Assembly: GCA_030740435.1 (NCBI GenBank) | Contig: JASLXG010000198.1 | Span: 1 to 57,386 of the forward strand | Length of the DNA stretch: 57,386 bases | Reading direction: 5' to 3' | Source of the DNA: Alphaproteobacteria bacterium | GTDB lineage: Bacteria; Pseudomonadota; Alphaproteobacteria; UBA2966 | Shown: positions 26,236 through 42,864 of the stretch, piece by piece | Position numbering within the stretch: the first letter of the stretch is position 1 | Layout of the letters: the number at the start of each line of letters is the position of its first letter | The notes under the pieces: generated by a model | What the model was told of the DNA's origin: nothing | Databases searched by the model: none | The model's input: the letters and a program-made list of their open reading frames with translations, nothing else | Program-made: the position numbers and the translations under genes

Positions 26236-26351
26236 GGGCTGACCTCGCTTTTCACGGGGAAACGCCGGCCAACATACGCCGGGCCGCGGCAATTGAGGAA
26301 CCGCAAAAGAAACTGATAGGTTCGTGCATCGCTTAGGGAAGGGGAAGGACC

Positions 26352-27563
26352 ATGACGGACGCTGCCAGCCAGGGACCACTAAGCGGCCGTCGGGTTGTGG
26401 AACTGGGATCGACCGTGGCGGCGCCCTTTTGTGGGCGCCTGCTGGCCGATTTCGGAGCCGAGGTCATCAAGGTGGAACCCATCGACGGTGATCCGCTGCG
26501 CTCCATGGGCCGGCAACACCAGGGAAAATCCCTCTACGCCGCCAACATCTTTCGCAACAAGCGGCTGATATCGGTGGATCTGAGAACCCCTGACGGTCAG
26601 GAGATCGTGCGCAAATTGGCCGCCGCCTGCGACATCCTGATCGAGAATTTCCGCCCCGGCAGGCTGGAGGAGTGGGGCCTGGGCTATGACGAGCTCTCCG
26701 CCCTCAACCCCGGTATCATAATGGTCCGCATCTCGGGCTACGGCCAGACCGGTCCGTATCGTACGCGCCTGGGCTACGGCGTCACCGCCGAGGCGGTCAG
26801 CGGTCTCAGGGAAATCACCGGCGATCCGGACCGGCCGCCGCCGCGCATCGCGATTTCCCTGACCGACGACATCACCGGGCTTTACGGCGCGCTGGGTGCC
26901 ATGATGGCGCTTTTGCATCGCCAGCAGACGGGCCAGGGACAGGTCATCGACGCGGCGCTTTACGAAGGCGCCTTCAGTTTCATGGAGCCCCACATCCCGG
27001 CTTATTCAATGCTGGGTGAGGTGGCGAAAAGGGCCGGCTCGGCGCTACCGAACCATTCGCCCAACAACCTCTACCCGACGTCGGCCGGCGGCTATATCCA
27101 TATTGCCGCCGCCAATCAGGGGACTTTCCGGCGCCTGGCCAAGCTCATGGGATCCCCGGCCCTGGTCGAGGACCCGCGCTTCGCCACCGGCATCGAGCGC
27201 GGGCGCAACGCTGACGAGTTGGATGCCATCGTCGCCGCCTGGACGGCTGACAAGGATCTCATGGAGTTGGAGAAGCAACTGGTCGAGGCCGAAATCCCGG
27301 CCGCCCGCATCTACTCCGTTGCGGACATCTTCGAGGACCCCCATTTCCGCGCCCGCGACATGCTGCTCGAGATGCCGGACGCGGATTTCGGCCAGGTGAC
27401 GCTGCCCGGCATCGTTCCCAAGCTCTCGCAAACACCGGGAGGGGTGCGCTGGACGGGACGGCGGATCGGCGAGGACACGCGTGCCGTGCTGGCTGAGATT
27501 GCCGGAATGTCGCAAGACGAGATCTCAAGCCTGGAAACGGCGGGGGTTATTTTCTGCGGCTAG
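26352..27563 (+). CDS. CaiB/BaiF family CoA-transferase
   Basis: A 403-aa family III CoA-transferase. It opens with LSGRRVVELGSTVAAPFCGRLLADFGAEVIKVE, the standard start of the family, and has NKRLISVDLRTPDGQEIVRKL. The catalytic aspartate is expected in SLTDDITGLYGALGAM near residue 176. These enzymes move CoA between carboxylic acids. GGGGAAGG precedes the ATG. It is divergent from the MetH-like gene (116 bases) and convergent with the biotin carboxylase; the two stop codons share the palindrome CTAG at 27560-27563. The donor and acceptor are unknown. Confidence 0.88.
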   Translation: MTDAASQGPLSGRRVVELGSTVAAPFCGRLLADFGAEVIKVEPIDGDPLRSMGRQHQGKSLYAANIFRNKRLISVDLRTPDGQEIVRKLAAACDILIENFRPGRLEEWGLGYDELSALNPGIIMVRISGYGQTGPYRTRLGYGVTAEAVSGLREITGDPDRPPPRIAISLTDDITGLYGALGAMMALLHRQQTGQGQVIDAALYEGAFSFMEPHIPAYSMLGEVAKRAGSALPNHSPNNLYPTSAGGYIHIAAANQGTFRRLAKLMGSPALVEDPRFATGIERGRNADELDAIVAAWTADKDLMELEKQLVEAEIPAARIYSVADIFEDPHFRARDMLLEMPDADFGQVTLPGIVPKLSQTPGGVRWTGRRIGEDTRAVLAEIAGMSQDEISSLETAGVIFCG

Positions 27564-28921
27564 CGGGAATCGAGCCACGTCGTGTGGATGCGGCTGGCGA
27601 GGAAGTCGGGGTGCTCCAGGATCCAGCGGTGGAAGGGGATGGTGGTGTGGACGCCGTCGACGCCGAAACCGGCCAGGGCGGTCGCCGCCCGGGCCACGGC
27701 GTCATCGCGGTCGTGGCCGTGGACGACGAGCTTGCCGAGCAGGGAATCGTAATAGGGTGGGATCGAATAGCCCTCGAAGACATGGGAATCGAGGCGAACG
27801 CCTGAGCCGGCCGGTGGCCGCCAGCGCTCCAAACGGCCCAACGAGGGCATGAAACCGTTGGCTGGATCCTCGGCGTTGAGGCGGAATTCGATGGCGTGCC
27901 CGGCGATTTTCGGCCGGTCCTGGGCGAACGAGAGCGCCTCGCCGCCGGCGACCCGCAATTGTTCGGCCACCAAATCGAGGCCGGTTACCATCTCGGTGAC
28001 CGGATGTTCCACCTGAATGCGGGTGTTCATTTCGATGAAGAAAAATTCCCGGCTGTCTGTGTCGTAGATGAACTCGACGGTACCGGCGCCGACATAGCCG
28101 ATCTCCCGGGTCAGCGCCTCGGCGGCCTCGCACATGCTGGTTCGGATGGCCTCGTCGAGCACCGGCGAGGGGGCCTCCTCGAGCAGTTTCTGATGGCGGC
28201 GCTGTAGGCTGCAGTCGCGCTCCCAGAGATGCCGGGCGTTGCCCTGGGAATCGCCGAAGACCTGGACCTCGATATGGCGGACGGTGGGAAAGTAACGTTC
28301 GAGATAGATGCCACCGTCGCCAAAGGCAGACGCCGCCTCGCCGCTGGCTTGCGCGAACAAGGCCTCGAAGGGGTCGCTTTCGCCGACGATCCGCATACCC
28401 CGCCCGCCGCCGCCCGAGCGCGCCTTTAAAAGCAAGGGGAAACCGATATCCGCCGCCGCCTTGGCCGCCTCGCGGCCGTCGCTGAAGGCCTCGCCTGAGC
28501 CGGGAGGCACCTTCAATCCGTAGCGCTCCGCCGTTTGGCGCGCCGCCACCTTGTCGCCCATCAGGGCGATGGTATCGGCCGAGGGACCGATGAAGGTCAG
28601 ACCTGCATCGGCGCAGCGGCTGGCGAACTCGGCATTCTCGGCCAGGAAGCCGTAGCCCGGATGCAGGCCGTCGCAGTCGCGAGAGCGGGCCACGTGCAAT
28701 AGCGCAGCGCTGTTGAGATAACTCTCCGAGCTCGGTGGCGGGCCGATGCAAACGGCGCTGTCGGCCGCCCAGACATGCGCCGAGCCTGCATCCGCCGTTG
28801 AATGCACCGCCACCGTCTCGATATTGGCCTGGCGGCAGGCGCGCACGATGCGCAGCGCGATCTCGCCCCGGTTGGCCACCAGGATCCGTTGCAGTCCTGG
28901 CTTTTTGCGCCCTGCCGCCAC
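27560..28921 (-). CDS. Biotin carboxylase subunit (AccC/PycA-like)
   Basis: A 453-aa ATP-grasp biotin carboxylase. It starts RILVANRGEIALRIVRACR, has the ATP loop KARSGGGGRGMRIV, ERYFPTVRHIEVQV, and FIEMNTRIQVEHPVTEMVTG with metal- and biotin-site residues. It carboxylates biotin on a carrier protein using ATP and bicarbonate. The start is GTG, 7 bases from the CoA-transferase B stop. It is the last gene of the 12-gene operon whose carrier and carboxyltransferase lie three to four genes upstream. It could serve a pyruvate-type or another acceptor rather than acetyl-CoA, because no AccA/AccD or PccB-type carboxyltransferase is present. Confidence 0.88.
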   Translation of the reverse strand: MAAGRKKPGLQRILVANRGEIALRIVRACRQANIETVAVHSTADAGSAHVWAADSAVCIGPPPSSESYLNSAALLHVARSRDCDGLHPGYGFLAENAEFASRCADAGLTFIGPSADTIALMGDKVAARQTAERYGLKVPPGSGEAFSDGREAAKAAADIGFPLLLKARSGGGGRGMRIVGESDPFEALFAQASGEAASAFGDGGIYLERYFPTVRHIEVQVFGDSQGNARHLWERDCSLQRRHQKLLEEAPSPVLDEAIRTSMCEAAEALTREIGYVGAGTVEFIYDTDSREFFFIEMNTRIQVEHPVTEMVTGLDLVAEQLRVAGGEALSFAQDRPKIAGHAIEFRLNAEDPANGFMPSLGRLERWRPPAGSGVRLDSHVFEGYSIPPYYDSLLGKLVVHGHDRDDAVARAATALAGFGVDGVHTTIPFHRWILEHPDFLASRIHTTWLDSR

Positions 28922-28927
28922 CTAGGT

Positions 28928-29614
28928 TCAGAGCTCCGGGCAACAGAGCGGCGCGCAGTCGGCAGCACGTTGCAGCGGCGCCCCGGTGCGGGCCTGCAGG
29001 GCCCCGAGATCCATGCCGTCGAGCATCTCGCGCACCACCAGCCCGTCGTCGCCCACATCGATTAGCGCCAGATCGGTGAAGATGCGCTTGACCACGCCCG
29101 GCCCGGTCAGCGGCAAGGTGCATTGGTCGAGGATGCGGGGCTGTCCGTCGGGGTCACTGTGCGACATCAGCACCCAGATGTTGCGCGCCCCGGCGGTCAG
29201 GTCCATGGCGCCGCCCACGCCCGGCGGCTGGCTGTTGTCTTCGAGGCTCCAATTGGCGATATCGCCATGCCGCGATACCTGGTAGGCGCCCAGCAGCCCG
29301 TAGTCCAGATGGCCGCCGCGGATCATGTCGAAGGCCTCGGCCTGGTTGAAGATGGCGGCCCCGGCAAGCAGGGTGACCGGTTGCTTGCCGGCATTTATGA
29401 GGTCCCAGTCCTCCTCCCCCTCGGGCGGTCGCGGCCCCATGCCCAGGAGGCCGTTTTCGGTGTGGTAGAGCACTTCTTTGTCGGCCGGCATGTGGTTGGC
29501 TACCAAGGTCGGCAGGCCGATTCCCAGGTTGACGTAGCTGCCGTCCGGAATCTCCCGGGCCGCCCGCCAGGCGATCTGATCGCGGCTCAGGGGCTGGCTT
29601 CGGAGCCCACTCAT
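28928..29614 (-). CDS. 3-oxoacid CoA-transferase, subunit B
   Basis: A 228-aa family I CoA-transferase beta subunit of the PcaJ/ScoB/AtoA type. The catalytic glutamate is visible in HTENGLLGMG, and VNLGIGLPTLVANHM and PPGVGGAMDLTAGARN are family motifs. I chose ATG 29614, which overlaps the alpha-subunit stop (ATGA); the open frame extending upstream is a shadow. The pair would move CoA from succinyl-CoA or acetyl-CoA to a carboxylic acid. Confidence 0.9.
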   Translation of the reverse strand: MSGLRSQPLSRDQIAWRAAREIPDGSYVNLGIGLPTLVANHMPADKEVLYHTENGLLGMGPRPPEGEEDWDLINAGKQPVTLLAGAAIFNQAEAFDMIRGGHLDYGLLGAYQVSRHGDIANWSLEDNSQPPGVGGAMDLTAGARNIWVLMSHSDPDGQPRILDQCTLPLTGPGVVKRIFTDLALIDVGDDGLVVREMLDGMDLGALQARTGAPLQRAADCAPLCCPEL

Positions 29615-30282
29615 CGGCGCTCTCCCGTAGGCACCACGCGGTCGACGTAGATGCCTGGTGTCACCACCTGTTGGGGTTCGATCTCCCCCAACTCGACGAT
29701 CTCGCGAACCTCGGCGATGCAGAGGTCGCCGGCCGCCGCCATCATGGGATTGAAATTCCGCGCCGTGTGACGATAGGTGAGATTTCCCCAGCGGTCTGCG
29801 CGGTCGGCCCGGATCAGGGACACGTCGGCCCGCAGGCCATATTCGAGGACGCACTCGACGCCGTCGAAGGTGCGAATCTCCTTGCCTTCCGCGAGCCGCG
29901 TGCCGATGCCGGTGGGCGTGTAGAAGGCGGCGATGCCGGCACCGCCGGCCCGGATGCGCTCAGACAGCGTGCCCTGGGGGACCAGCTCGAGCTCGATCTT
30001 TCCCTGGCGGTAGAGATCGGCGAAGACCACCGATCCCGCCGTCCGCGGAAAGGTGCAGATGACGCGGCGCACCCGCCCCTTGGCCATCAGGGCGGCCAGG
30101 TCCTGCTCGCCGCTGCCGGCGTTGTTGGCGATGACGGTGAGGCCGCTGGCCCCCTGTTCGACCAGGGCGTCGACCAGGTTGACCGGATTGCCGGCGGTGC
30201 CGAAGCCGCCGATCATTACGCTTGCGCCATCGCCGATGTCGGCAACGGATTCGGCAATGGATGCCATCCTCTTGTCGATCAT
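29611..30282 (-). CDS. 3-oxoacid CoA-transferase, subunit A
   Basis: A 223-aa alpha subunit of the PcaI/ScoA/AtoD type. GDGASVMIGGFGTAGNP near the start and FYTPTGIGTRLAEGKE in the middle are family landmarks. It pairs with the following beta subunit. Together with the CaiB/BaiF gene nearby, the locus carries two unrelated CoA-transferases, so acids are likely handled as CoA esters. The real substrate is not readable. Confidence 0.9.
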   Translation of the reverse strand: MIDKRMASIAESVADIGDGASVMIGGFGTAGNPVNLVDALVEQGASGLTVIANNAGSGEQDLAALMAKGRVRRVICTFPRTAGSVVFADLYRQGKIELELVPQGTLSERIRAGGAGIAAFYTPTGIGTRLAEGKEIRTFDGVECVLEYGLRADVSLIRADRADRWGNLTYRHTARNFNPMMAAAGDLCIAEVREIVELGEIEPQQVVTPGIYVDRVVPTGERR

Positions 30283-30302: not shown

Positions 30303-31757
30303 CTATTTCCACAGCTCGATCTTCAGCGCGCCCTTTTCGATGGAGACGTGGGGCAGCGTGGAGGTCGAGGCGATTTCGCGGATCAATTGGAGATCCGGCG
30401 ATTCGCCAGGGGCGTGGTCAGGACCTTCCGCCGCCGCCGCAACGATCTCGTCGACCAGGTTGTCCGGGAAGGCCTGGCGCAACAACAGCTCGTCCTCGCC
30501 GGCGGCGGGGTAGCGCCGGCGCAGCCCTGGCAGTGTGGCCTCGGGCTCTCCACCATAGGGCAGGATGGTCTTGGCGCCGTTTTCCATGATGCGGTCCAGC
30601 ACCTCGGGCGCCACCGGTGCCAGCAGCTTGCCGTAATGCCCCAGCGCATATTTCTTGACCTCGTCGGGAATTCGTTTGTAGCGCTCCCCCTCGATGACGT
30701 TGAGGGCGGCCTGGACGCCGATGAACTGGGAGAACGGCGTGACCTGGATGGGCCAGCCCAGTTCCTCGCGCACCCGGGTGCTTTCGCTCAGCACCTCGTC
30801 GACCTTGTCTCCCAGCCCGGCCGCCTCGAGCTGGGCCACCAGGTTGCTCAGCACCCCACCCGGCACCTGATGGCCGAAGTTGGAGGCGTCGAAATCCTGG
30901 GGCCGGCCCAGCGGCTTGTCCTCGGCCAGGGCGATGGCCTCGAAATGCCGGCTGACCTCGTCGATCAGGCCGTCGTCCAGGTCAACATCGTAACCGAGAT
31001 AACGCAGGTTGCGCGCCGTGGTCTGGACCGACGGTGGGGCGTTGCCGTCGGCGATGGGCGAGATGCAGGTGTAGAGGTGGTCGACGCCCTGCTTCACGGC
31101 CTCGATCTGGGTGCGCTGGGCCAGGCCCACCAGGTTGTGCACGTGAAGGCCCAGCGAGACCTCGCCGATTTCCCGCTTCAGCGCCGGCACTAGGGTGGCG
31201 GCGCGCTCGGAGGTCAAAATTCCGCTGGTGTCCTCGATCATCAGCGCATCCACCTGGCAACGATCGAGGAACTCGCGGGCCTTCTCGACGTAAAGCTCGT
31301 CGGTGTGGATGGGGCTATCGCTGAAGATCAGCCAGCCCGTGGTGTGGGCGCCCAGCTTCTTGGCGTGCAACAGGCTGTCGACCAGGTTGTCGAGATCGTG
31401 CAAGCCGTCGAAGGCGATGAAGCGGTCGATGCCGTTGGCCATCAAGCGCTCGACCCAGAGGCAGGCGATGTCGGTGGGTTGCAGCTCGAACGAGAGCGCG
31501 CATTTGCTGCGGATCAGGGCCTGCAAGGGGGTTTTGGTCATGCGTTGCTTGAGCGCACGCAGGCGGGCCCAGGGGTCTTCGGCGAGGAATCGCACGCAGG
31601 TATCGAACTGCACCGCGCCCATGACCTCGATCACATCGAAGCCGGAGCGGTCCATCTTTTCCGCCACCGGCAACATCATGGGCGTCGACATGCGGGTCGC
31701 CCACAGGCACTGATGGCCGTCGCGCAAGGTGGTGTCGACGATCTTCACTGCCGGCAT
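30303..31757 (-). CDS. Carboxyltransferase-domain protein (OadA/PycB-like) with altered active site
   Basis: A 484-aa TIM-barrel carboxyltransferase related to pyruvate carboxylase/oxaloacetate decarboxylase. It opens KIVDTTLRDGHQCLWATRM, keeps FDTCVRFLAEDPWARLRALK, the metal histidines H205 and H207 in GLHVHN, and VPGGVLSNLVAQL. However, the normally invariant lysine of the IKDMAG motif is glutamate here (IEDTSG, E175). The pyruvate-site RGxN reads RSKC, and NDxRN reads HDLDN. It sits next to the biotin carrier, so it still seems part of a biotin system, but the acceptor or even the reaction is probably not pyruvate carboxylation. Confidence 0.75.
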   Translation of the reverse strand: MPAVKIVDTTLRDGHQCLWATRMSTPMMLPVAEKMDRSGFDVIEVMGAVQFDTCVRFLAEDPWARLRALKQRMTKTPLQALIRSKCALSFELQPTDIACLWVERLMANGIDRFIAFDGLHDLDNLVDSLLHAKKLGAHTTGWLIFSDSPIHTDELYVEKAREFLDRCQVDALMIEDTSGILTSERAATLVPALKREIGEVSLGLHVHNLVGLAQRTQIEAVKQGVDHLYTCISPIADGNAPPSVQTTARNLRYLGYDVDLDDGLIDEVSRHFEAIALAEDKPLGRPQDFDASNFGHQVPGGVLSNLVAQLEAAGLGDKVDEVLSESTRVREELGWPIQVTPFSQFIGVQAALNVIEGERYKRIPDEVKKYALGHYGKLLAPVAPEVLDRIMENGAKTILPYGGEPEATLPGLRRRYPAAGEDELLLRQAFPDNLVDEIVAAAAEGPDHAPGESPDLQLIREIASTSTLPHVSIEKGALKIELWK

Positions 31758-32218
31758 CAGTCGGGCTCGATCAGGATCAGCGGCTGGTCGTAGGCCACCA
31801 GGGCGCCGTTCTCGACCAGGATTTCCTTGACCGTCCCCGAGACCCCGGCGGCGATCGAATTGAAGAGCTTCATGATCTCGATCAGGCAGACGGTGTCATC
31901 GGCCGCCACCCTGTCGCCGACCTCGCAGAACGGCGGCTCCTGGGGCGCGGGCGCGCGGAAGACGGTCCCCACCATGGGCGCGGAAACCACGAATAGGCCC
32001 TCGGGAACCGCCACGGGCGGTACTTCGACCTGAGCCGCCGGGCTCGCCGGGCTCGCCGGGCTCGCCGGGTTCGCCGGGGGGGCGCCGGCCAGCGGTGCCA
32101 GGGGGCGGTTTTTGCTGGCCCTGATGCGCAGGTCATCGAACTGGATATCGACTTCTTCGTAGGCCGATTCCTCGACGATCTCGAGGATGCGTTTGATGTC
32201 GCTGATGGTTGTCGGCAT
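31757..32218 (-). CDS. Biotin carboxyl carrier protein (AccB-like)
   Basis: A 153-aa carrier from ATG 32218. The biotin lysine lies in CLIEIMKLFNSIAAG near residue 115 (classic EAMKM is EIMKL here). An N-terminal AccB-type helical segment (ISDIKRILEIVEES) is followed by a Pro/Ala/Ser linker encoded by 9-bp tandem repeats. It carries carboxybiotin between the biotin carboxylase and the carboxyltransferase gene, whose start overlaps its stop by one base (TGATG). Confidence 0.9.
   Translation of the reverse strand: MPTTISDIKRILEIVEESAYEEVDIQFDDLRIRASKNRPLAPLAGAPPANPASPASPASPAAQVEVPPVAVPEGLFVVSAPMVGTVFRAPAPQEPPFCEVGDRVAADDTVCLIEIMKLFNSIAAGVSGTVKEILVENGALVAYDQPLILIEPD
32040..32075 (-). repeat. 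Four 9-bp tandem repeats in the biotin carrier linker
   Basis: GGGCTCGCC occurs three times perfectly (32040-32066) and once as GGGTTCGCC (32067-32075). On the coding strand these give the Pro-Ala-Ser/Asn linker. Copy-number change would only alter linker length. Confidence 0.8.
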
Positions 32219-32276
32219 GTCAGGGCGGCCCCGGTGGGTACTAGTCACCGCGAGTGTACATGGTTTTGTTCGGCAT

Positions 32277-33125
32277 CTACTTTTCGAGTTTCATGTCCGA
32301 ATCGGTCAAGAGGAATTCCTGGGCCATAATCAGTTCCATCAGGTGTTCAGCCAGCTCGATCTGCGCCGATTTCGCGCCCGCGCCCTGGGCCGCTGAAAAT
32401 TGCCCTTGCCACCAACCGAAGAGGCTGGCGAGCATGGCCTGGTCGAGAACCGGAACCGCCAGCGCCACGCTGTTGCACAAGTCGCCATTGCCGCCGAGCA
32501 GGGCGGAATCCATGTCGAACATCTCGGCCGTGAGGGAGAGCGACGGCCGTTCGGGCGAGGACCGCGTGCCGCGGCTGATCACCGTGCCCTGGGCCTTGTT
32601 GAGCAGCACCCTGCTGCCGGCCCGGATGGTGCCGAAAAGCGCCACCGACCCGGAAGCGGGGAGAGGGGAATCGTAAACGTACATTCTGGCGAATTGAAGC
32701 TGCCCTATGGTGAATTCGGATCGGTAGGTGTCTCCTTCCACGGACAGGCATTCCACCTCGATTTTCTTCCCCTCGATCAATTCGAGCAGCAAGTCGGAAC
32801 CGCTGAATGTCGATTCCGGGTCCTTGCTTTCCTGGTCGGCGAAGACCAGCGTATCGACCAGGCCCAGGCGTTCGTTGGGGGCCGGGCCGGGAAAGCCCTG
32901 GATGCCGTTGAGCCAGATCTTTTCCGCCCGCGTGAACACCCCCCGTTCCGCCACCGGCACCACCAGCATGGCCGACGAGCCGGAGATCGGCGCCTGGTAG
33001 GCAATGGTGACGACGTCGACGTCTTGGGATGTGTTCCGGCCCAGCTCCGCCGCCGTCACCACCTTGGCCTGGCCGGCCTCGATGCGGGCGTTGATCAGGG
33101 CGATGTCCTTGCCGCCGGCCGGCAT
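32277..33125 (-). CDS. COG1900/DUF39 paralogue without ferredoxin domain
   Basis: A 282-aa protein clearly homologous to the larger COG1900 protein at 34468-35793. Shared features are DVDVVT near residue 36, the ISGSSAMLVVPVA/MSGTSAMLVIPVA segment, WLNG, KIEVECL with C126, and a matching C-terminal tail (FLLTDSDMKLE / FLLNDSSLEMKH). It lacks the cysteine-rich ferredoxin insert and the RNDYQNY region of its partner. COG1900 proteins in methanogens take part in sulfur transfer to aldehydes. Being paired, the two may form a heterodimer with one electron-carrying and one plain subunit. The start overlaps the previous stop by one base. Confidence 0.7.
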   Translation of the reverse strand: MPAGGKDIALINARIEAGQAKVVTAAELGRNTSQDVDVVTIAYQAPISGSSAMLVVPVAERGVFTRAEKIWLNGIQGFPGPAPNERLGLVDTLVFADQESKDPESTFSGSDLLLELIEGKKIEVECLSVEGDTYRSEFTIGQLQFARMYVYDSPLPASGSVALFGTIRAGSRVLLNKAQGTVISRGTRSSPERPSLSLTAEMFDMDSALLGGNGDLCNSVALAVPVLDQAMLASLFGWWQGQFSAAQGAGAKSAQIELAEHLMELIMAQEFLLTDSDMKLEK

Positions 33126-34462
33126 CAGTTTTCCCCTGAATCCCAGTCGGGGGTGATGGCCTCCGAGATGTGCACCACGCGTTGGCCGAGTCCAAAGCGT
33201 TCGATGTTGTCGATAAGCTGGATCAGGCATCCCGGGCAGCCGGTGACGACGACATGGGCCTCGCTGCGGGCGATGGACTGGACTTTGGTCGCGGCGATCT
33301 GCCGTGAAAGCTCTTGGTGCTCCAGGCTGAAGGCGCCGGCGAAACCGCAACAGCCGTTGTCGTCCGATTCAATGAATTGTTCGCCGAAGACGTGGCGCAG
33401 GATTTGTCGCGGCTGATGGCGCACGTCCTGGTGAAAGGCCAAATGGCAGGGTTCGTGGTAGGTCACCCGGGTGCCCTCGGGCAGCGCCGAACGGAAGGGC
33501 AGGGGTTTGAATTCGGCCAGCTCCAACAACAGTTCCGAAATGTCGCGCACGGCGCCGCCGAAGGCTTCGAAGCGCTCGCGCTCGGCGTCGCTGTGCGCCA
33601 GGTTGCCGGCCCAGCCTTCCTTGAGGGTGGAGCCACAGGTGGCGCATCCGGTGACCACCAGGTCGGCCTCGAGAGCGGCGAAAACGTCGAGGTTATGAAG
33701 CGCCATGCGGCGCGCTGTTTCCAGGTCGCCGGCGGCCAGCAGGGGAATGCCGCAGCAGCTCTGATCCTGGGCATAGACGACCTCGACACCCAGGTGGTTG
33801 AGTGCGCCGATCAAGGCCTTGCCCACTTCCGGGAAGCTGAACTCGGTGGCGCAGCCGGGGAAGAAAGCGACGCGAAGGTGGCGATCCTCGCTGCCCTTCG
33901 CGGGCGCATGGATGTCGCCGATCTGCTCGCCCAGGAACTTGCCGGCGATAGCGGGGAAGTGCCGCCCGCCCAGGCCCGGGAAGAACCAGGGCAGATGGCG
34001 GATCTTGCCGGCGGCCTCCGACGGCAGGTGATGGATCTTGCCGTCCGCTTCGCGGCTCGTCGGCAGCATCCATTGCCAGCGCGCCGCCGTCCGCAGCGCC
34101 TTGGCCAGGCTTTCCTTGTCCTTCATCAGCCTGCGGAAAAGGGTTCTTTTGACCATGGGCAGCCCGTTCTGGCGCACCAACTCGGCCCGCGCCGCCATGG
34201 TCACGACGTCGGTGCGGATGCCGTGCGGGCAAACCGTGGTGCAGCGCCGGCAGAGCAGGCATTTGCTGAAACGATCCCGAACTCCCGCGATCAGTTCGTT
34301 GTGGTCGTCAAGCACCTCCTTGAGCAGATGGTTGCGCCCTCGCGATACGTAGTTCTCATCGGGCTCCCTGGCGTAAACCGGGCAGGCCTGGAGGCACAGG
34401 CCGCAGGCCACGCACTTCTCCGCCTCGTCGCGAATGCGTTCTATTTGGGCCAGGCTAGGCAT
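33125..34462 (-). CDS. HdrD/GlcF-like iron-sulfur oxidoreductase
   Basis: A 445-aa cytoplasmic protein with two N-terminal 4Fe-4S motifs (C17-C20-C23-C27 and C68-C71-C74-C78, the latter CLLCRRCTTVC) and two CCG domains. The CCG cysteines are in FFPGCATEF...QSCCGIPL...TGCATCG, and in HEPCHLAF...NGCCGFAG...TGCPGC. This is the layout of glycolate oxidase GlcF, GlpC, LldE and heterodisulfide reductase HdrD. It would carry electrons between a dehydrogenase and a disulfide/thiol or quinone. Lying between the two COG1900 genes, it is a good candidate to supply or accept electrons in their sulfur reaction. Confidence 0.8.
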   Translation of the reverse strand: MPSLAQIERIRDEAEKCVACGLCLQACPVYAREPDENYVSRGRNHLLKEVLDDHNELIAGVRDRFSKCLLCRRCTTVCPHGIRTDVVTMAARAELVRQNGLPMVKRTLFRRLMKDKESLAKALRTAARWQWMLPTSREADGKIHHLPSEAAGKIRHLPWFFPGLGGRHFPAIAGKFLGEQIGDIHAPAKGSEDRHLRVAFFPGCATEFSFPEVGKALIGALNHLGVEVVYAQDQSCCGIPLLAAGDLETARRMALHNLDVFAALEADLVVTGCATCGSTLKEGWAGNLAHSDAERERFEAFGGAVRDISELLLELAEFKPLPFRSALPEGTRVTYHEPCHLAFHQDVRHQPRQILRHVFGEQFIESDDNGCCGFAGAFSLEHQELSRQIAATKVQSIARSEAHVVVTGCPGCLIQLIDNIERFGLGQRVVHISEAITPDWDSGEN

Positions 34463-34467
34463 CGCTC

Positions 34468-35793
34468 TCAGAGGTTCCAGTGTTTCATTTCCAGGGAAGA
34501 ATCGTTGAGCAGGAAAGCGCCTTCATCCATCAGCTCCTTGAGGTACTCGGTGAGGATCTGGGCGCGCCGGCGGTTGGACTGGCGGAACAGCACCGGAATC
34601 CGGCGCCCGAAGGCCGGGATGTCGCCGATGCTTCCCTGGGGCACCTGCCCCTTGCCGGTAAACGCCCCGCCCAGGCAGTTGGCCGTACAGGCACCGCAGG
34701 CGACGCACAGGCTCTGGTCGATTTCCTTCTGGCGCCACGAGATCGCTCCCATGGGGCAGTAATATTCGGCCGGGCACTGGAAGGCGCAATGGATGCAGCG
34801 CTCGGCCAGGAACTCGACCTCCAGGGGGGCGCCTTGCCAGAGATCGGCGTAGGTGGCGTTGACCAGCGGGATGCGATCGCCGATGTCGGCGATCTTGAGG
34901 GCGATGTTCTCGTCCAGGCACCACGACAGGTCGGCGATGACCTCGGCATCGGTGATGGGAAAGGGCACGGCGATGCCGTTGGTCACCTCGACCCCGAAGC
35001 TGGTCTTGAAACCGCCCATGAACTCCGGATCCATGCCGAACATGTCGGCCGCCAGCGAGATCGCCCGCATTCCCGGAGTGCTGCGCGTGCCATAGCCGAT
35101 CAGGGTTCCCGGCACCTTGTTGACGAGGATTTTCATGCCCGCCTTGAGGACCTTGGCACGGCGGTCGTTTTCCAGGGGATTGAGCTCGCCGCTGCCGCTC
35201 GCCGTCATGCCCTTGAGCCGCGGCATCGGCCGGCAGGCGAATATCGACTTCGGATTTTGGCGATACGAGGGATGGTCGTTGACGTTGGCGAAGGCCGTGT
35301 AGTTCTGGTAGTCGTTACGGAAATTGTAGAGGCGGGCGAAATCGAGATCCTCGATGGTGAACGATGTCAGGATCGTCCGGTCGTCCGTGGTCAGGCATTC
35401 GACCTCGATTTCCCGGCCCTCGACGATGTCGCGCAAAAGGTGGCCGCCGCCGTAGCGGCCCGGATAGTCGACGCTCTCCTCGGTGCCGAAAATCACCGTA
35501 TCGACTTTGCCCGTGCCTTCGGCGGGGTGGGAGCCGGGAAAACAGGGGACGCCGTTCAGCCACATCCGCTGGGCTCGGGCGAACGCGCCCGCGGCGGCCA
35601 CCGGGATGACCAGCATGGCCGAGGTTCCCGACATGATGGCGCGGGTGGCGGTGGTCACCACGTCGACGTCCGAGACCTTGAACTTGTAGCCGTTCCTGAC
35701 CTCCTTCTTGAATTCGCTGGCCGTCATGACGACGGCATCGCCGCGCCTCAGCTTGGCGTTGATCTCGGCGATGGTCTTGGTTTGGGAAGACAT
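34468..35793 (-). CDS. COG1900/DUF39 protein fused to a ferredoxin domain
   Basis: A 441-aa protein. Residues 1-325 match the COG1900 family (homocysteine biosynthesis/aspartate-semialdehyde sulfurtransferase group): VDVVTTATRAIMSGTSA, YGGGHLLRDIVEGREIEVECL, NFRNDYQNYTAFAN, and GTLIGYGTRSTPG. Residues 333-373 hold two 4Fe-4S motifs (C333, C336, C340, C346 and C363, C366, C369, C373). In methanogens, COG1900 works with a separate NIL/ferredoxin protein; here the ferredoxin is built in. The cysteines I recall as conserved in methanogen members (in GPMCSSGA and GTDCYP contexts) are not at those places, but C133 in IEVECL is shared with the second paralogue. Function is therefore by homology only. 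Confidence 0.72.
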   Translation of the reverse strand: MSSQTKTIAEINAKLRRGDAVVMTASEFKKEVRNGYKFKVSDVDVVTTATRAIMSGTSAMLVIPVAAAGAFARAQRMWLNGVPCFPGSHPAEGTGKVDTVIFGTEESVDYPGRYGGGHLLRDIVEGREIEVECLTTDDRTILTSFTIEDLDFARLYNFRNDYQNYTAFANVNDHPSYRQNPKSIFACRPMPRLKGMTASGSGELNPLENDRRAKVLKAGMKILVNKVPGTLIGYGTRSTPGMRAISLAADMFGMDPEFMGGFKTSFGVEVTNGIAVPFPITDAEVIADLSWCLDENIALKIADIGDRIPLVNATYADLWQGAPLEVEFLAERCIHCAFQCPAEYYCPMGAISWRQKEIDQSLCVACGACTANCLGGAFTGKGQVPQGSIGDIPAFGRRIPVLFRQSNRRRAQILTEYLKELMDEGAFLLNDSSLEMKHWNL

Positions 35794-35805: not shown

Positions 35806-36567
35806 TCAACCGGCCAGCTCGATTTGGCCCCAGGCCGCCAGCTTTCCGCCGGCCACGATGACGACGCCGTCAACGCCGATCTGCCGAGCCCGGGCGACGC
35901 CGACGGCAAGATCGGCCGGCCCTTGGACGACGTTGGCGACGGCGGTGGCGGCGGCATCGGCCAGCGCCGCCGAGGGCGCCACCGCCATCACCGCGTCGGC
36001 CCGGCCAAAACTCAGCGAGGGGCCCGTGGTTCCCGACGAGGTGCCTATGCCAAGGGCCTCGGGTGATGGCGGCAGGGCGATGCGCATGCCCTCGAATTCC
36101 GAGTCCTCGGCCAGCAGCAGCATCTGCCTCGGGGCCAGGGAGCGGACGAAGATATCCCCACCGTTCTCGACGATGACGTCACGGCTCCGAGGCCCGAGCT
36201 CGCGGCCGACGAATTCGGCGATGGCCCCGGCCACGGCCGCCATCGGTCCGACGCCGGCCTGGGCACCGGCGGCGATCATGGCGCCGACGATGTCAGGCGC
36301 CGCCGCATCGCGCTCCAGGGGAACCAGGGCCCTGGCGAAATTCGGATGGCCGGCGATGTATTGCTCGATTCGCGCCCGGTAGCGCCGCACCAGGGTGTCG
36401 GCGCGCTGGTCCAGATCGACCATCGCCGAGACCAGGATATCCGTCTCCTTGACCCGCACCCGGGCCGCCACCAGATCGCCCGAGGCCACGGCCTGGCGAT
36501 AGGCCGCGGCGCCCAGGGAGGTGGGCGGGAAGCGCCCATCAGCGCTCGAAGGGCTTGATCTCGACAT
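35806..36567 (-). CDS. UPF0280/COG2122 family protein (ApbE-like)
   Basis: A 253-aa UPF0280 protein. Diagnostic stretches are VRVKETDILVSA, IEQYIAGHPNFARALVPLE, AGVGPMAAVAGAIAEFVG and VIVENGGDIFVRS, plus the later SGTTGPSLSFGRADAV. The fold is related to the FAD-dependent flavin transferase ApbE. In Methanosarcina a COG2122 protein was needed, with COG1900 and a ferredoxin, for homocysteine formation from sulfide. Its presence with two COG1900 genes strongly suggests the same type of chemistry. Its start overlaps the ferredoxin gene by 29 bases; a shorter start is possible because the first ~15 residues look poorly conserved. Confidence 0.8.
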   Translation of the reverse strand: MSRSSPSSADGRFPPTSLGAAAYRQAVASGDLVAARVRVKETDILVSAMVDLDQRADTLVRRYRARIEQYIAGHPNFARALVPLERDAAAPDIVGAMIAAGAQAGVGPMAAVAGAIAEFVGRELGPRSRDVIVENGGDIFVRSLAPRQMLLLAEDSEFEGMRIALPPSPEALGIGTSSGTTGPSLSFGRADAVMAVAPSAALADAAATAVANVVQGPADLAVGVARARQIGVDGVVIVAGGKLAAWGQIELAG

Positions 36568-37012
36568 CTCCCATCTCGCGCAGGCGTTTCTCGTTGAGGG
36601 CGAAGGCGATGTCGGACGGGCGCCCGAAGAAGATCGTCTTCATGGTGCAACGGGTGGCGCAGGCCGGCCACAGTCCCTGTTCCAGGCGGCCGGCACAGCT
36701 GTCGCACCAGGCCTTGCCAGTCCAGCGCTGGCGGCTGGAAGGACAGGTGATCCAGAAATTGTAGTCGTCTTGGTACTGGCACGGGGTTTCGCAGTGCCGG
36801 CAGGCCAGCGGCAGCACGAAGGTCGGACCGCCGTCGTCCCCGGCCACCAGGATGGGCCGGAAGGCGCCGTGTTCCAACTGGCAGGCCAATTGGCAGGCGC
36901 CGCAGGCGATGCAGCGGTCCAGGTCGACCATCATGACTAGCTCGTCAGGATCGCAAAGTCCCGGGTCGAAGGTCTCCTGCCCCATTTGCTGGCCGACGAA
37001 TACGAGCTTCAT
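36539..37012 (-). CDS. 4Fe-4S dicluster ferredoxin, DmsB/HybA-like electron-transfer subunit
   Basis: A 157-aa protein from ATG 37012, overlapping the oxidoreductase stop by four bases. Cysteine motifs CIACGACQLACQLEH, CRHCETPC, and CDSCAGRLEQGLWPACATRC fit the four-cluster electron-transfer subunit of DMSO-reductase-family enzymes. No signal peptide or membrane anchor is seen, so it is cytoplasmic. It would connect the molybdopterin subunit to another carrier, perhaps the Fe-S proteins encoded next. Confidence 0.85.
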   Translation of the reverse strand: MKLVFVGQQMGQETFDPGLCDPDELVMMVDLDRCIACGACQLACQLEHGAFRPILVAGDDGGPTFVLPLACRHCETPCQYQDDYNFWITCPSSRQRWTGKAWCDSCAGRLEQGLWPACATRCTMKTIFFGRPSDIAFALNEKRLREMGDVEIKPFER

Positions 37013-39174
37013 GGGCGCATTCCTCCGGCCTCGAGGAATTCGATCAGCCGGTGGCGCGCCTCTTCCCCGTCCTGCTCCGGCCGGCGCACCAGCACCCGGG
37101 CAAAGGGATCGGCGGCCCTGGCGAACAGGGACCGCGGATGGAAGGCGTCGAGACCGTGCGGGCACCAGACCACCCGGGGATCGAGGCGGCTGTCGGGGCA
37201 CGAGGTGCCGCTGATGCGACCTCTTTCGTTCTCGACAACCACCGGCTCGCCGCTGCCGATGCCCAGCAGCTTGGCGATTCGCGGATGCAGCCGCACCGGC
37301 GGCGGCGCCGTGGCGCGGTCCACGTCGGAGACGAAAAACCCGAAGTCCCGGATGGCATCGACCAGCACCCCGGTGGTCAGCATCAAGGGCATGTGGTCGT
37401 CTTCGTCGTCGGCGTCGCGGCCGGCTATGGCCGGATAGCCCACCTTGCCCGTGGGCGTCGGGAAGCGCCGGTCGCTTAGCGGGTAGGCCCGGCGGCGGCG
37501 GAACAGGATGTTTCGGCCGCGCACGTCGCCGCGGCCGAAGCGGTCCTCCTCGAAGTCGAGGTCGCCCTCGTCGACGGAGGGCCACAAGAGGCCGCCCGGC
37601 GGGTTCTTTTCGGGATCGAGAGCCGCCACCGAGGCGGCCCGGGTCAAGGGGTTTCGCTTGAGGAAGAAGTCGGCGGCGGCCCGGGCATCGACGCCGCCGT
37701 CGTCGCCCAGCCAGGGGAGGGCAGCCGCCAGCCCGCAGGCGCCGGCCAGATCGGTCCAGAATTCGAGCCCCGAGCGGCATTGCTCCGGCGCTTGTGCCAC
37801 GGCGTTGCACCATTGCAGGGCGCGGCCGTTTCCCGTGGCCACCAGGGCGGAATGCTCGAACCAGGAACTCATCGGCAACGACACCTGGGCGCGCTTGCGG
37901 GTGTCGTCGGCATAGGACGAGAGATGCACGACGAAGGGAATCTTCTCGAAGGCCTGCCGCGTTTGCCGCCCGCCGGCCAGGTCGGCGTAGGGGTTGCCGT
38001 GGCAGATGGCGGCGCCGACGGCCGTTGCCGGGTCGAGAAGAATCTCTTCCAGGCTACGCCCCGGGGCGGTGTTTTGCGGCGCCGAAAACGGCGAGGCGCT
38101 CAGCAGGTTCAAGCCGCCGCCGGGAATTCCCAGTGACCCCCGCAGGCAGACCAGCGCCCCGGCCAGGCACAGTTCCTCGTCCGAGAGGAATTGCCGCGTG
38201 CCCCAGTCGGCGGCCAGAACCTGCAACGGTTTGCTGCGCCCGATCAGCCCGGCCGCCTCGAGCAATTGCTGCGCCTCGAGCCAGCAGTCGGCGGCCACGC
38301 GGTCCGGCGGGAACAAGGCTACCTCCCTTTCGAGACGGCCGAAGTCCATGTCGTCGAGAGAGTTCCGGTCGATCCCGTCCTGGCCATAGAGCAGGTGAAT
38401 CAAACCCTTGAGCGCCGTGGCGTGACTGCCCGGTTTGACCTGCAGGAACAAGTCAGCCTTGGAAGCCGTCATGGTTTCCCGGGAATCGATGACGATCAGG
38501 GCGGCGCCACGGTCGCGGGCGTCGATCACGGGTCCGAAGGTGATGGGGTCGGAGGCGGCCGGGTCGGAGCCAAGAACCACGATGCAGCGGCTGTTGCACC
38601 AGTCCCGTGGCGAATTCGTCAGCAACTGCGACGCGGCAACGCCGAACATCTCGCTGATCTTTCCGCTAGCGCCGAAAGGGCTGGGAAAAGATGTATAGGG
38701 ATTGTTGGGAATGGCCAAATTCTCACAGAACCAGGCGCCCGCCAGCAGGTGATCCGTGGGCGCCGTTTCCGATCCGAAGACGAAAATCGATTCCTTGCCG
38801 TGCTTCCCGGCAAGCCGCAGAAGGGCTTGAGCGGTGAACTCGATTGCCTCCGGCCATGCCACAGTCTTGAACGGCGCGTCCGGGCTTTCCCTGATGCCGA
38901 GTTCGGTCAGCCTGTGCGGGTTCTTCAGGTGATAGAGGCCGAGCAGGCCCTTGGGGCAGAAAGACCCCTTGTTGGCGGGGTGGTCCTCGTCGCCGAAAAC
39001 ATCGACGATCTCGTCGCCCTTCAGGAAAACCTTGATTCCACATCCCGCCGGACAGCCGCAGCAGGTCGTCCTGCGCAGCGTGTCGTAGGGCCGAACAGAT
39101 TCCTGCTTTTTGCCGAGGGTCGTCCGGGTTTGCTTTGCCACAGCGCTCATTTCACAAGTCTTGTGGTCTTTCAC
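37009..39174 (-). CDS. Molybdopterin oxidoreductase catalytic subunit (DMSO reductase family)
   Basis: A 721-aa protein. The N-terminal 4Fe-4S motif is C38-x2-C41-x3-C45-x27-C73 (CCGCPAGCG ... SFCPKG). The middle has RCIVVLGSDPAASDP and LIVIDSRETMTASKADLFLQVKPGSHATAL, both Mo-cofactor regions. The C-terminus is a dinucleotide-binding domain (VRLHPRIAKLLGIGSGEPVVVENERG). No twin-arginine signal is seen, so it is cytoplasmic. At the place where formate dehydrogenases have Cys or Sec I see none (NNPYTSFPSPFGASG), which argues against formate dehydrogenase. The GTG start at 39174 is used; ATG 39150 is an alternative. It is first in the 12-gene operon. Substrate unknown. Confidence 0.8.
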   Translation of the reverse strand: MKDHKTCEMSAVAKQTRTTLGKKQESVRPYDTLRRTTCCGCPAGCGIKVFLKGDEIVDVFGDEDHPANKGSFCPKGLLGLYHLKNPHRLTELGIRESPDAPFKTVAWPEAIEFTAQALLRLAGKHGKESIFVFGSETAPTDHLLAGAWFCENLAIPNNPYTSFPSPFGASGKISEMFGVAASQLLTNSPRDWCNSRCIVVLGSDPAASDPITFGPVIDARDRGAALIVIDSRETMTASKADLFLQVKPGSHATALKGLIHLLYGQDGIDRNSLDDMDFGRLEREVALFPPDRVAADCWLEAQQLLEAAGLIGRSKPLQVLAADWGTRQFLSDEELCLAGALVCLRGSLGIPGGGLNLLSASPFSAPQNTAPGRSLEEILLDPATAVGAAICHGNPYADLAGGRQTRQAFEKIPFVVHLSSYADDTRKRAQVSLPMSSWFEHSALVATGNGRALQWCNAVAQAPEQCRSGLEFWTDLAGACGLAAALPWLGDDGGVDARAAADFFLKRNPLTRAASVAALDPEKNPPGGLLWPSVDEGDLDFEEDRFGRGDVRGRNILFRRRRAYPLSDRRFPTPTGKVGYPAIAGRDADDEDDHMPLMLTTGVLVDAIRDFGFFVSDVDRATAPPPVRLHPRIAKLLGIGSGEPVVVENERGRISGTSCPDSRLDPRVVWCPHGLDAFHPRSLFARAADPFARVLVRRPEQDGEEARHRLIEFLEAGGMRP

Positions 39175-39440
39175 TTAAGCTCGATCCTGCCGCTTCGCCG
39201 GATACTTGGCAAGCCAGCAGGGGCGCCGTCCCCGCAACAATCGGGGCCTTCGAGGAAGACCACAATATCTCTAGGGCAAATTCCGTTGGACGTTCGGCAA
39301 GGCAACACCTAATCTGATGGGTATCGCTGACGTCATTTTACTTGCGGTTGAGATTGGTTTTTCTCACACGGTAGCGTCGGCGTTCGTTGGCGAGGGGAGC
39401 GCGCAACGAAGACAACACCAACAAACAAGGGGCCGATGCC
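39175..39440. promoter_or_regulatory. Divergent region between the Mo-enzyme operon and the TRAP genes
   Basis: These 266 bases separate two divergent transcription units, so promoters for both must be here. I see no convincing gene. A small inverted repeat TGAGA-TTGGTTTT-TCTCA lies roughly 90 bases before the TRAP start. The arrangement suggests shared control of the operon and the transporter, but no regulator gene is adjacent. Confidence 0.4.
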
Positions 39441-40748
39441 ATGAAAAAGATACCGGAGTTCGTCAGCACCAAGGAATCCGCGGCCAAGGTAAGTCGCCTT
39501 TCGGAAGAGGTTCTCGACACCACAGAAGATCTTGAGGTCAAGCTGTCGGGGGTATCTCGGCGCGATTTCATGCGCATCAGTTCGCAATACGGCATGACGG
39601 CGACCTATGCCGCCGCCGCGGCCATGGGTGGGATGTTCTCGGCCGAAGCCCTGGCCCAGACCGCCAACACGAAGTACCAGAAGAAATTCGCCACCAAGGC
39701 CAAGCATGTCCTGAAACAGGGCTCCGTGTTCCGCTGGGAGCATACCAAAGTGCAGCGCGCCGGAATCTGGGAATTCTGCCAGGATCTCGAGGAACGGACC
39801 GACGGTGAGATCCGGGTCGAGATTCTGCCCGGAAATTCGGTCTGCGCCGAGCCGGTCTGCATTCAGAAAACCATGCAGGGCGTGCTCGACATCGGCACCT
39901 CCTCGACGCAGAACGCCTCGGGCATCGTGCCCTGGCTGAACGCCTTGGATTTTCCCTACATGTTCCAGTCGGCGGGTCAGATCTATCACTTCCTCTTCAA
40001 CCCGAAATCGGAGCAACTGTTCCGCAAGGTCTATCGCGAGAAATACAAACTCGAAACGCTGTGGTCGCTCTGTGAAATGCGTCAGCTTTTTATGGGCATG
40101 AAGTGGAAGGACAAGCCGCCGATCACCAACATCGGCATGCTGGCCGGCACCAAGAACCGGGTGACCAATACCCAATTGGGCCGCATCGCCATGCAGCTGA
40201 TGAAGCTGAACCCGGTGCCGGTGGCCTGGGTCGAGACCCTGGACGCCATGAAGTCGGGCCTGATCGACGGCATGGAGACCTGGACCTCGGCCTGCACCGC
40301 CTTCAACATGGCACCGGTGGTGTCGCAGTACGTGGGTCTGAAGTTCATTCCCGGCACCGAGCATTCGGCGATCCGGGTGCAGACCCTGGACAAGCTCGGC
40401 AGCCGCCTCGCGGAAGAGGTCATGGAAGCCGGCTACCAGGCCCAGGCGAGGGTCATGTACAATAACGAAGCCGGTCTCGTGACGATCTCCGGCGAAACCC
40501 CGCATCCCTCGCCGGACAGCATTTTCGGCAAGGCCGGCACGGTGATGAACTTCTTCTCGGACGCCGCCCTCAAGGAAGCCGAGGAGATCGCCAGTCCGAC
40601 CCGGCCCGAATACAACAAATGGCACGAGAAGCTCAACAAATTGGGCGGCTACGATGTCTACAAGGAGATGTTGCCGGTGGTCCGCGAATATCCCAAGGAC
40701 AAGCGGGCCATCGATGTCGAGCCCCGTCGTTGGTGGAAATCAGCCTAG
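39441..40748 (+). CDS. TRAP transporter solute-binding protein, Tat-exported (DctP family)
   Basis: A 435-aa DctP-family binding protein. The twin-arginine motif SRRDFM is at residues 39-44, followed by an Ala/Gly/Met hydrophobic stretch and a likely cut after AEALA near residue 72. The 38-residue region before the twin arginines is unusually long. Mature landmarks include VRVEILPGNSVCAEPVCIQKTMQGVLDIGTS (split: ILPGNSVC, QGVLDIGT) and NRVTNTQLGRIAMQLMKLNPVPVAW. ATG 39441 is chosen over the upstream in-frame ATG 39387. It should bind an organic acid or sulfonate in the periplasm for the next two genes. Confidence 0.88.
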   Translation: MKKIPEFVSTKESAAKVSRLSEEVLDTTEDLEVKLSGVSRRDFMRISSQYGMTATYAAAAAMGGMFSAEALAQTANTKYQKKFATKAKHVLKQGSVFRWEHTKVQRAGIWEFCQDLEERTDGEIRVEILPGNSVCAEPVCIQKTMQGVLDIGTSSTQNASGIVPWLNALDFPYMFQSAGQIYHFLFNPKSEQLFRKVYREKYKLETLWSLCEMRQLFMGMKWKDKPPITNIGMLAGTKNRVTNTQLGRIAMQLMKLNPVPVAWVETLDAMKSGLIDGMETWTSACTAFNMAPVVSQYVGLKFIPGTEHSAIRVQTLDKLGSRLAEEVMEAGYQAQARVMYNNEAGLVTISGETPHPSPDSIFGKAGTVMNFFSDAALKEAEEIASPTRPEYNKWHEKLNKLGGYDVYKEMLPVVREYPKDKRAIDVEPRRWWKSA

Positions 40749-40903: not shown

Positions 40904-41440
40904 ATGCCGACAAGCGTCAGGAATGCCTTGCGCTGGCTGGACCAGAATCTCGAGAAAACGATCCTGGTCAGCGCCTTCGCTGTCTGTGCCGGAATCGTCG
41001 CCGTCGAAGTGTTTCGGCGCTACGTCTTCAAGCTGCAGGCGCCCTGGAGCACGACCATTCCGTCCTACCTGTTTCTCTGGCTGACCTGGATCGGCGCCGC
41101 CTATTGCGTGCGCATTCGCACGCATCTCTGTTTCGGCGAAATTCGTGACCGTTTGGCGCCGTTTTGGCAGTTCGTCCTGATCCAGAGCGATTACGCGCTT
41201 TATCTGGTTTTCGGCCTGGTGGTGATCTACTGGTCCTACGACCTTGCCGCGCTGCACTACAACATCGAATCCATTGTCCCGGGCACCGACGACCTGCCGA
41301 GCTGGATTTTCTACAGCGCCACGCCCCTGGGCTGGGGGCTGCTGCTGTTTCGCGTTGCCCAGAACGTCATCGACGACGTGCGCGATTTCCGCGCCGGCAA
41401 ACCGCCCCAGGTGCGCGGCACCCTGGCGATCAGCGATTGA
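40904..41440 (+). CDS. TRAP transporter small membrane subunit (DctQ family)
   Basis: A 178-aa membrane protein with four hydrophobic segments. The family motif EVFRRYVFKLQAPWSTTIPSYLFLWLTWIGAAYCVR (residues ~34-70; key parts RRYVF, APWS, W-TWIGAA) is clear. It pairs with the large DctM subunit encoded 11 bases downstream and completes a three-part TRAP importer driven by ion gradients. Confidence 0.9.
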   Translation: MPTSVRNALRWLDQNLEKTILVSAFAVCAGIVAVEVFRRYVFKLQAPWSTTIPSYLFLWLTWIGAAYCVRIRTHLCFGEIRDRLAPFWQFVLIQSDYALYLVFGLVVIYWSYDLAALHYNIESIVPGTDDLPSWIFYSATPLGWGLLLFRVAQNVIDDVRDFRAGKPPQVRGTLAISD

Positions 41441-41451
41441 GGGGGCGGATC

Positions 41452-42747: not shown

Positions 42748-42864
42748 GGAACGCGGGCTAGCCCGTCTTGGACCGGCCAATTGGGGCCAACTGGTTCTAA
42801 CGGCCGGGCTCTCCCGGGGCCACCGTTGGGCTACACTCGTTGCCCCCACCCCAGGAGAAATCCC

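Follow-up and report, generated by a model that had tools for sequence, protein, structure and literature searches.

The closest described systems are the biotin-dependent ketone carboxylases HpeCBA of Rhodococcus rhodochrous GD02 and XccBCA of Aromatoleum aromaticum EbN1, in which, as far as the accessible text of their reports goes, the biotin carboxyl carrier protein (BCCP), biotin carboxylase (BC) and carboxyltransferase (CT) are separate subunits, as they are in the operon considered here. HpeCBA, a phosphophenylethanone carboxylase, carboxylates 4-phospho-acetophenone with a kcat of 2.4 per second, and its beta-keto-acid product is then CoA-activated and cleaved, according to the accessible part of its description (PMC9618137). 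The host used to produce HpeCBA was R. jostii RHA1 rather than E. coli. The CT of HpeCBA itself would be of the OadA type, an assignment that rests on synteny, and the subunit letters for BC and CT differ between the two papers. Acetone and acetophenone carboxylases (Acx, Apc) also carboxylate ketones with ATP, but in the accessible parts of their accounts, and to our knowledge, they are not biotin enzymes and are unrelated to the CT described below. In the better known CTs of pyruvate carboxylase (PC), OadA and transcarboxylase 5S, the barrel holds a metal-binding lysine, and in several accounts this residue, once carbamylated, is a ligand of the metal. For oxaloacetate decarboxylase, a further role has been proposed, in which lysine 178 takes up the substrate carboxyl and, thus carbamylated, hands it on to biotin (PMC2881705, accessible text).

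The window is the whole stretch of alphaproteobacterial DNA that was analyzed, 57,386 nucleotides long. Its CT gene (30303..31757; minus strand, like the CT residues and the operon genes located below) is an open reading frame of 484 codons with an ATG start and no internal stops, assigned to the OadA type from its HMGL-like and PYC_OADA domains, its solved relatives and its model. The protein contains the motifs DTTLRDGHQ (8-16), RSKC (83-86), FDGLHDLDN (116-124), IEDTSG (174-179), LHVHN (204-208) and VTPFSQ (339-344). A first-pass annotation had read a glutamate at the place of the metal-binding lysine, and this is what was found: residue 175 has the codon GAG (31233..31235) and is aligned by HMMER with the lysine of LKDMAG in Vibrio cholerae OadA (2nx9), Lys178 by row count, as it is with the lysine of PC and 5S. 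The same annotation was right that the DTTLRD and HVH motifs of the metal site are kept, as Asp13 of LRD (31719..31721) and His205-Val-His207 (31137..31145) are present; we take their roles as metal ligands from the 5S and PC structures. Thr340 of the VTP motif (30738..30740) is the counterpart of the PC proton-transfer threonine.

The best solved relatives of this CT are OadA (2nx9), the beta subunit of a two-subunit pyruvate carboxylase (PC-beta, 5ks8) and 5S (1rqb). An AlphaFold model built from an 18-sequence alignment (mean pLDDT 88.2, pTM 0.85) aligns with 5ks8 at Z 50.3, with 2nx9 at 46.5, with 5S at about 46 and with aldolases at about 35. The model puts Glu175 where barrel strand 171-176 ends on its C-terminal side, and the HxH motif where strand 201-206 ends, which are the usual places of the metal site. 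The window CT shares with OadA, 5S and PC-beta a fold that superposes along some 435-450 residues at Z 46-50, the PYC_OADA domain with its TIM barrel, the Asp and HxH ligands, Arg83 and Thr340. It differs from them in having Glu for Lys, no fused biotin domain, a ketone-type gene context and scores far below the equivalog cut-offs: 371 against 756.5 bits for OadA, 278 against 827 for 5S and 194 against 965 for PC. The domain model NF006761 is the only model of PC/OadA/5S type that it passes (414 against 402 bits).

DRE-TIM lyases have an xxDTxG strand and hold their metal with an Asp and two His. The IEDTSG strand of the window CT resembles theirs, and it had been proposed that the protein might catalyze a non-carboxylating DRE-TIM reaction, which would make it an aldolase, a lyase or a Claisen-condensing enzyme; a decarboxylase can be considered along with these. 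Its best NCBIfam score among such lyases and synthases is a weak match to 4-hydroxy-2-oxovalerate aldolase, at 53 bits against a cut-off of 286, and in the list of similar folds the aldolases come after the carboxylases. The PYC_OADA domain, the Z scores of about 46-50 to carboxyltransferases compared with 35 to aldolases, and the BC and BCCP genes of the operon all argue against such a reaction, which finds no support here and is very improbable.

The CT gene belongs to a head-to-tail row of genes running from 39174 to 27560, closely spaced and overlapping in several places. The row begins with a formate-dehydrogenase-like molybdopterin oxidoreductase (37009..39174; TIGR01591 161.6 bits, below the cut-off of 666), followed by an iron-sulfur protein, a UPF0280-like protein (35806..36567; NF003323 246 bits, below the cut-off of 271), an HcyBio protein with a ferredoxin domain, of methanogenesis marker 16 type (34468..35793; PF01837 277.9 bits; TIGR03287 377.9 against 363.95), a CCG-domain iron-sulfur protein that is GlpC/LdhH-like by domain and family models (33125..34462), and a second HcyBio-family protein directly upstream of the BCCP gene (32277..33125; PF01837 107.9 bits; start placed at an ATG that shares bases with the stop codon of the gene before it, within a listed ORF 32277-33350). 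Then comes the carboxylase unit, in the order BCCP-CT-ScoA-ScoB-BC, its genes either overlapping or separated by no more than about 20 bp. It is composed of BCCP (31757..32248; motif EIMKL, Biotin_lipoyl domain, TIGR00531 126.7 bits against 115.2, E. coli BCCP 4hr7 as solved relative), the CT, subunit A of a 3-oxoacid CoA-transferase of the ScoA/PcaI family (29611..30282; TIGR02429 330 against 128.5 bits), its subunit B (ScoB; 28928..29614, CoA_trans domain, start placed at the ATG that overlaps the scoA stop, listed ORF 28928-29854) and BC (27560..28921; about 41-45% identity to six pyruvate carboxylases over their BC region). A separate BCCP, BC and OadA-type CT therefore stand in one operon, as in the Hpe and Xcc systems, and ScoA and ScoB supply beta-keto-acid-using enzymes alongside them. 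No thiolase and no kinase or phosphatase gene like those of HpeCBA proper were matched in the 24-44 kb part of the window. Compared with Hpe, the window operon is thus without kinase and phosphatase, and a CoA-transferase replaces the ligase.

On the plus strand lie a CaiB/BaiF-type CoA-transferase (26352..27563; CoA_transf_3), a TRAP solute-binding protein (39387..40748; DctP domain, 637 bits to the protein of relative L062, further relatives in L021, L022 and L032) and a TRAP large permease (41164..42747; DctM domain). A MetH-type cobalamin methionine synthase adjoins the operon (22789-26379), and a thiamine-pyrophosphate enzyme is found behind the TRAP genes (42781-44634). A promoter scan stayed at chance (1 found, 1.2 expected) and terminators were little above it (11 found, 8.0 expected). 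HcyBio-type proteins put sulfide onto aldehydes, making thiols, and a link of such thiol/carbonyl exchange to ketone carboxylation is conceivable. As conserved partners of the CT the HcyBio genes were rejected: of 41 relatives only the window's own genome has them, a search of 398 Pseudomonadota genomes gave no further case, and no plasmid carries them.

Relatives of the CT were collected as 43 loci from one genome scan, to which searches in sets of 61, 385 and 398 genomes added more; 98 plasmid records had a match, and 14 loci were taken from these. Residue 175 was no part of the peptide patterns used to pick relatives from genome contigs, so the choice of relatives did not depend on Glu. In the resulting 89-row alignment, this column holds 66 Lys, 13 Glu, 7 Tyr, 2 Gln and 1 Ser, and a profile search of the phylum sample found Lys at the site in all of 27 further Pseudomonadota relatives, most with the IKDMAG of OadA. 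The window CT falls in a clade (SH-aLRT 100) whose 12 proteins, ten with Glu and two with Gln, come from 10 loci, and whose sister clade of 21 rows is all Lys. A sequencing error or lone mutation at residue 175 is ruled out by this 12-row clade. Glu is also found in three Rhodococcus plasmid CTs (L076, L081, L084) in a separate part of the tree, grouped with six Tyr rows. Forcing all Glu and Gln rows into one clade lowered the log-likelihood by 175.8 (p-AU 4.6e-36) in a test set up after the first tree and run on 83 rows, with six long rows (L012, L073, L074, L082, L083, L088) left out, and a single origin is rejected. The swap from Lys to Glu is lineage-wide and repeated. The site needs six state changes on the full tree and four on the reduced one, both trees coming from a quick method with SH-aLRT support only. 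No natural replacement of the lysine in this carboxyltransferase fold was found described in the literature searched, to which most subscription journals were closed.

Other replacements at residue 175 come with changes elsewhere in the metal site. The six Tyr rows that group with the Rhodococcus CTs (L005, L066, L069, L070, L071, L086) have HSNN or HANN, thus HxN, where others have HxH, and two predicted metal ligands have changed together in them, going by the alignment. These Tyr/HxN CTs adjoin a BC gene, and in four of the six cases a thiolase gene too. L088, the CT of a Sulfitobacter dubius plasmid (5983-7464) that is flanked by genes for BC, a TRAP transporter and two copies of BCCP, has LRN for LRD and Ser at the place of Lys; its long branch meets that of L073, which has Tyr, and a third loss of Lys is therefore unsure. 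The two Gln proteins come from two genomes of the window's family, each next to a Glu copy: in L026 (9932-12927) and L027 (8124-11449), the Gln and Glu CT genes overlap head to tail after a BCCP gene. A fused double CT is not claimed for the 1040-residue open frame of L027, as L026 has two separate overlapping genes. The paired copies, and the loss of ligands in the Tyr/HxN rows and L088, would fit a Glu/Gln clade that has given up metal-dependent chemistry, as a metal-free carboxyl-transfer variant or a structural partner subunit. However, Asp13 and both His are invariant in 12 of 12 rows of that clade, and the window CT is the only match of OadA/PC type in a search of its whole genome, which makes this explanation unlikely. 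Because of that single match, there is no OadA/PC-type CT with Lys for which the BC and BCCP of the operon could work; eight BC matches were found in the same genome.

Changes that go with the glutamate can be separated from those that do not. Besides residue 175, the columns E44, C86, H120, W142, Q214, Y229, D237, N239, P241, T247, D288, F289, V302 and V348 are conserved in the Glu/Gln clade and rare in the Lys sister, the clade-specific changes including K175E/Q, N120H, A/V142W, P214Q, H229Y and N237D. His120 (31398..31400) is invariant in the clade, and this position is Asn in 11 of 21 Lys-sister rows and in all ten canonical rows compared, and never His in the Lys sisters. The first-pass annotation had also pointed to altered RGxN and NDxRN motifs. 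Its readings RSKC and HDLDN are correct, but as marks of a Glu enzyme they are rejected: RSK or RSN for RGQ, and Asp, Ser or Gly for the Arg of NDxRN, are common to Lys-bearing sisters, so neither is linked to Glu, and the Arg of RGxN is conserved as R83. It had further named, as a finding that would overturn its reading, another lysine in the metal-site place. The only lysines conserved in at least 11 of the 12 clade rows are K133, K159 and K368, all placed by the model on helices and none at a barrel strand end, and on these modeled positions a replacement active-site lysine appears ruled out.

In the quick tree, the window CT lies apart from OadA and PC in a 54-row clade (SH-aLRT 98) that includes the OadA-type CTs of two hpe-syntenic operons, L083 (Rhodococcus sp. 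JS3073) and L085 (Rhizobium leguminosarum BT01). L085 encodes, in order, a PEP-utilizing enzyme, a PEP/pyruvate-binding protein, BCCP, BC, CT, a HAD hydrolase, an acetoacetate-CoA ligase and an amidohydrolase. This is the gene order given for hpeH, I, C, B, A, D, E, F, and both operons match hpeHI-CBA-D-E, in the accessible text of that report (PMC9618137). These two CTs keep Lys and have lost the Arg of RGxN (TTG), whereas the window CT has Glu and R83. The Lys sister CTs of Betaproteobacteria, Paenibacillus and Actinomycetota (for example L029, L041, L080) are 46-55% identical to the window CT and resemble it in the RSK, RSN or RSR motif and in having BCCP and BC, with ScoAB and thiolase in L041 and L080; unlike it, they keep Lys, never have His at position 120, and have no TRAP transporter matching the window's. 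L080 is close to the window operon, with CT, BCCP, BC, BioY, ScoA, ScoB and thiolase in a row.

Gene context among relatives is of the same kind. Over 44 loci, BCCP is near the CT in 30, BC in 19 and either in 31, and BKACE is found in 10, ScoA with ScoB in 6 and thiolase in 7; 18 loci have at least one of the three. In the plasmid sample, BCCP and BC accompany the CT at all 14 loci, and at five of them there is also a thiolase, ScoAB or BKACE. Eight of the plasmid loci include a gene resembling PPDK, PEP-utilizing enzymes or Tm-1; we have taken these for kinases, which for the Tm-1-like genes is our assumption. In the second Glu lineage, the operon of L076 and L081 is complete, with genes for a kinase, BCCP, BC, CT, an OB-fold protein, a thiolase and a phosphatase. 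What is probably an aryl ketone carboxylase cluster lies on plasmid pBAR1 of Sphingomonas bisphenolicum AO1 (L077, 4067-9485): it consists of BKACE, a Tm-1-like gene, BCCP, BC, a HAD hydrolase and an OadA-type CT whose annotation reads 'biotin carboxyl carrier protein'. At the Lys-type locus L063, the neighboring BKACE scores 460 bits with the 3-oxoadipate model, above its cut-off of 350, so that levulinate would be the ketone at L063. A levulinate-type acceptor for the Glu clade is only a guess, and naming the CT substrate from this BKACE was dropped.

The proposal that the enzyme uses a different acceptor from PC, OadA and 5S is plausible on sequence grounds, given its grouping with ketone-carboxylase-like CTs and its scores far below the three equivalog cut-offs. 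The same evidence bears on the idea that the CT is still a carboxylase of pyruvate or another 2-oxo acid, the anaplerotic enzyme of its genome, with a tolerated change from Lys to Glu. That idea would account for the lack of another PC/OadA-type CT in the genome and for the conservation of R83, Q16 and T340; it sits badly with the low scores, the neighboring 3-oxoacid CoA-transferase, the clade-wide active-site changes and the position in the tree, and we consider it unlikely.

Within the Glu clade itself, partners vary. Parts of a related TRAP transporter occur in L021, L022, L023, L032 and L062, a CaiB-type CoA-transferase in L021, L023 and L062, and BCCP in L021, L026, L027 and L062. The window is the one Glu-clade locus with ScoAB next to the CT, and L032 (Marivibrio halodurans, a culturable strain) the one with a thiolase there. 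In the stretches examined, BC was found in none of nine other Glu-clade loci, and neither BC nor BCCP in L022, L023, L024, L025 and L032. A stand-alone BC with 53-64% identity to the window BC is present in all eight other Glu-clade genomes examined, and in six of them the best BC stands beside another CT, in every case a Lys CT. In L125 (Marivibrio), BCCP adjoins BC but neither has such a CT as its neighbor, and a pyruvate carboxylase lies about 6 kb off, and in L126 the best BC stands alone. Because BC is missing from these nine loci and the BCs of these genomes are mostly beside Lys CTs, most Glu CTs probably borrow a BC, the window being the self-contained case.

Altogether, we think it reasonably probable that the window CT is the carboxyltransferase of a three-part biotin-dependent ketone carboxylase in which Glu175 would directly give the metal the carboxylate otherwise provided by carbamyl-lysine. 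BC would load bicarbonate onto the biotin of BCCP with ATP, and the carboxybiotin would enter the CT barrel. There, the side-chain carboxylate of Glu175 would bind the metal held by Asp13, His205 and His207, with no lysine carbamylation; the ketone would be polarized at this metal, enolized as Thr340 relays the proton, and turned into a beta-keto acid by carboxylation. From this product ScoAB would then make the CoA ester for thiolytic cleavage by a thiolase coded elsewhere. The sequences show how the operon is built, that the other ligands are retained, that Glu runs through the clade and arose more than once, and which genes surround the related CTs; carboxylase activity, a ketone acceptor, Glu175 as direct ligand and this order of steps are inferred. 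Judging from the TRAP transporter and the CoA-transferases, the acceptor may be an organic acid that carries a keto group and is taken up from outside, and since the window has no kinase like that of the Hpe pathway, this acceptor must differ from that of Hpe. Counting against the proposal are the lack of a nearby BC at all nine other Glu-clade loci, five of them without BCCP as well, their partners lying elsewhere and in six of the eight other genomes beside a Lys CT; the confinement of ScoAB to the window and of thiolase to L032; and the Gln copy next to the Glu copy in two genomes, as Gln cannot be a carboxylate ligand.

A different metal site with a glutamate ligand, as first suggested for this gene, is a plausible reading of the kept Asp13, His205 and His207, the clade-wide conservation of Glu, its second origin and the want of a replacement lysine. 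In the amidohydrolase superfamily, too, carbamyl-lysine is exchanged for Glu. The enzyme might also be a ketone carboxylase in which Glu175 is off the metal, as general base or substrate binder, and Asp13 and the two His hold the metal alone. This is a possible though less likely arrangement: DRE-TIM relatives hold their metal with no ligand at this place, and Gln and Tyr occur there among the relatives, but Glu is the commonest replacement and has two origins, as expected if one carboxylate is swapped for another.

What is new is a known kind of enzyme with its metal lysine swapped in a whole lineage. The swap from Lys to Glu is a natural test of what carbamyl-lysine is for, and natural Glu, Gln and Tyr enzymes separate two roles of the lysine, binding the metal and carrying CO2. 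A tentative wider reading, for which the evidence falls short of even chances, is that carbamyl-lysine is dispensable: ketone carboxylases may have dropped it at least three times, to Glu with its Gln offshoot, to Tyr with loss of the second His, and to Ser with loss of the Asp, and yet still transfer CO2 from biotin, some of them perhaps metal-free. If dispensable, the lysine could not be a necessary station for the carboxyl group on its way between substrate and biotin, as was proposed for oxaloacetate decarboxylase. Glu can bind a metal but cannot carry CO2, and if the window operon is active, such a relay is therefore not obligatory in this fold. An active operon would also add to the biotin-dependent ketone carboxylases, of which the literature searched gave only a few cases, all aromatic.
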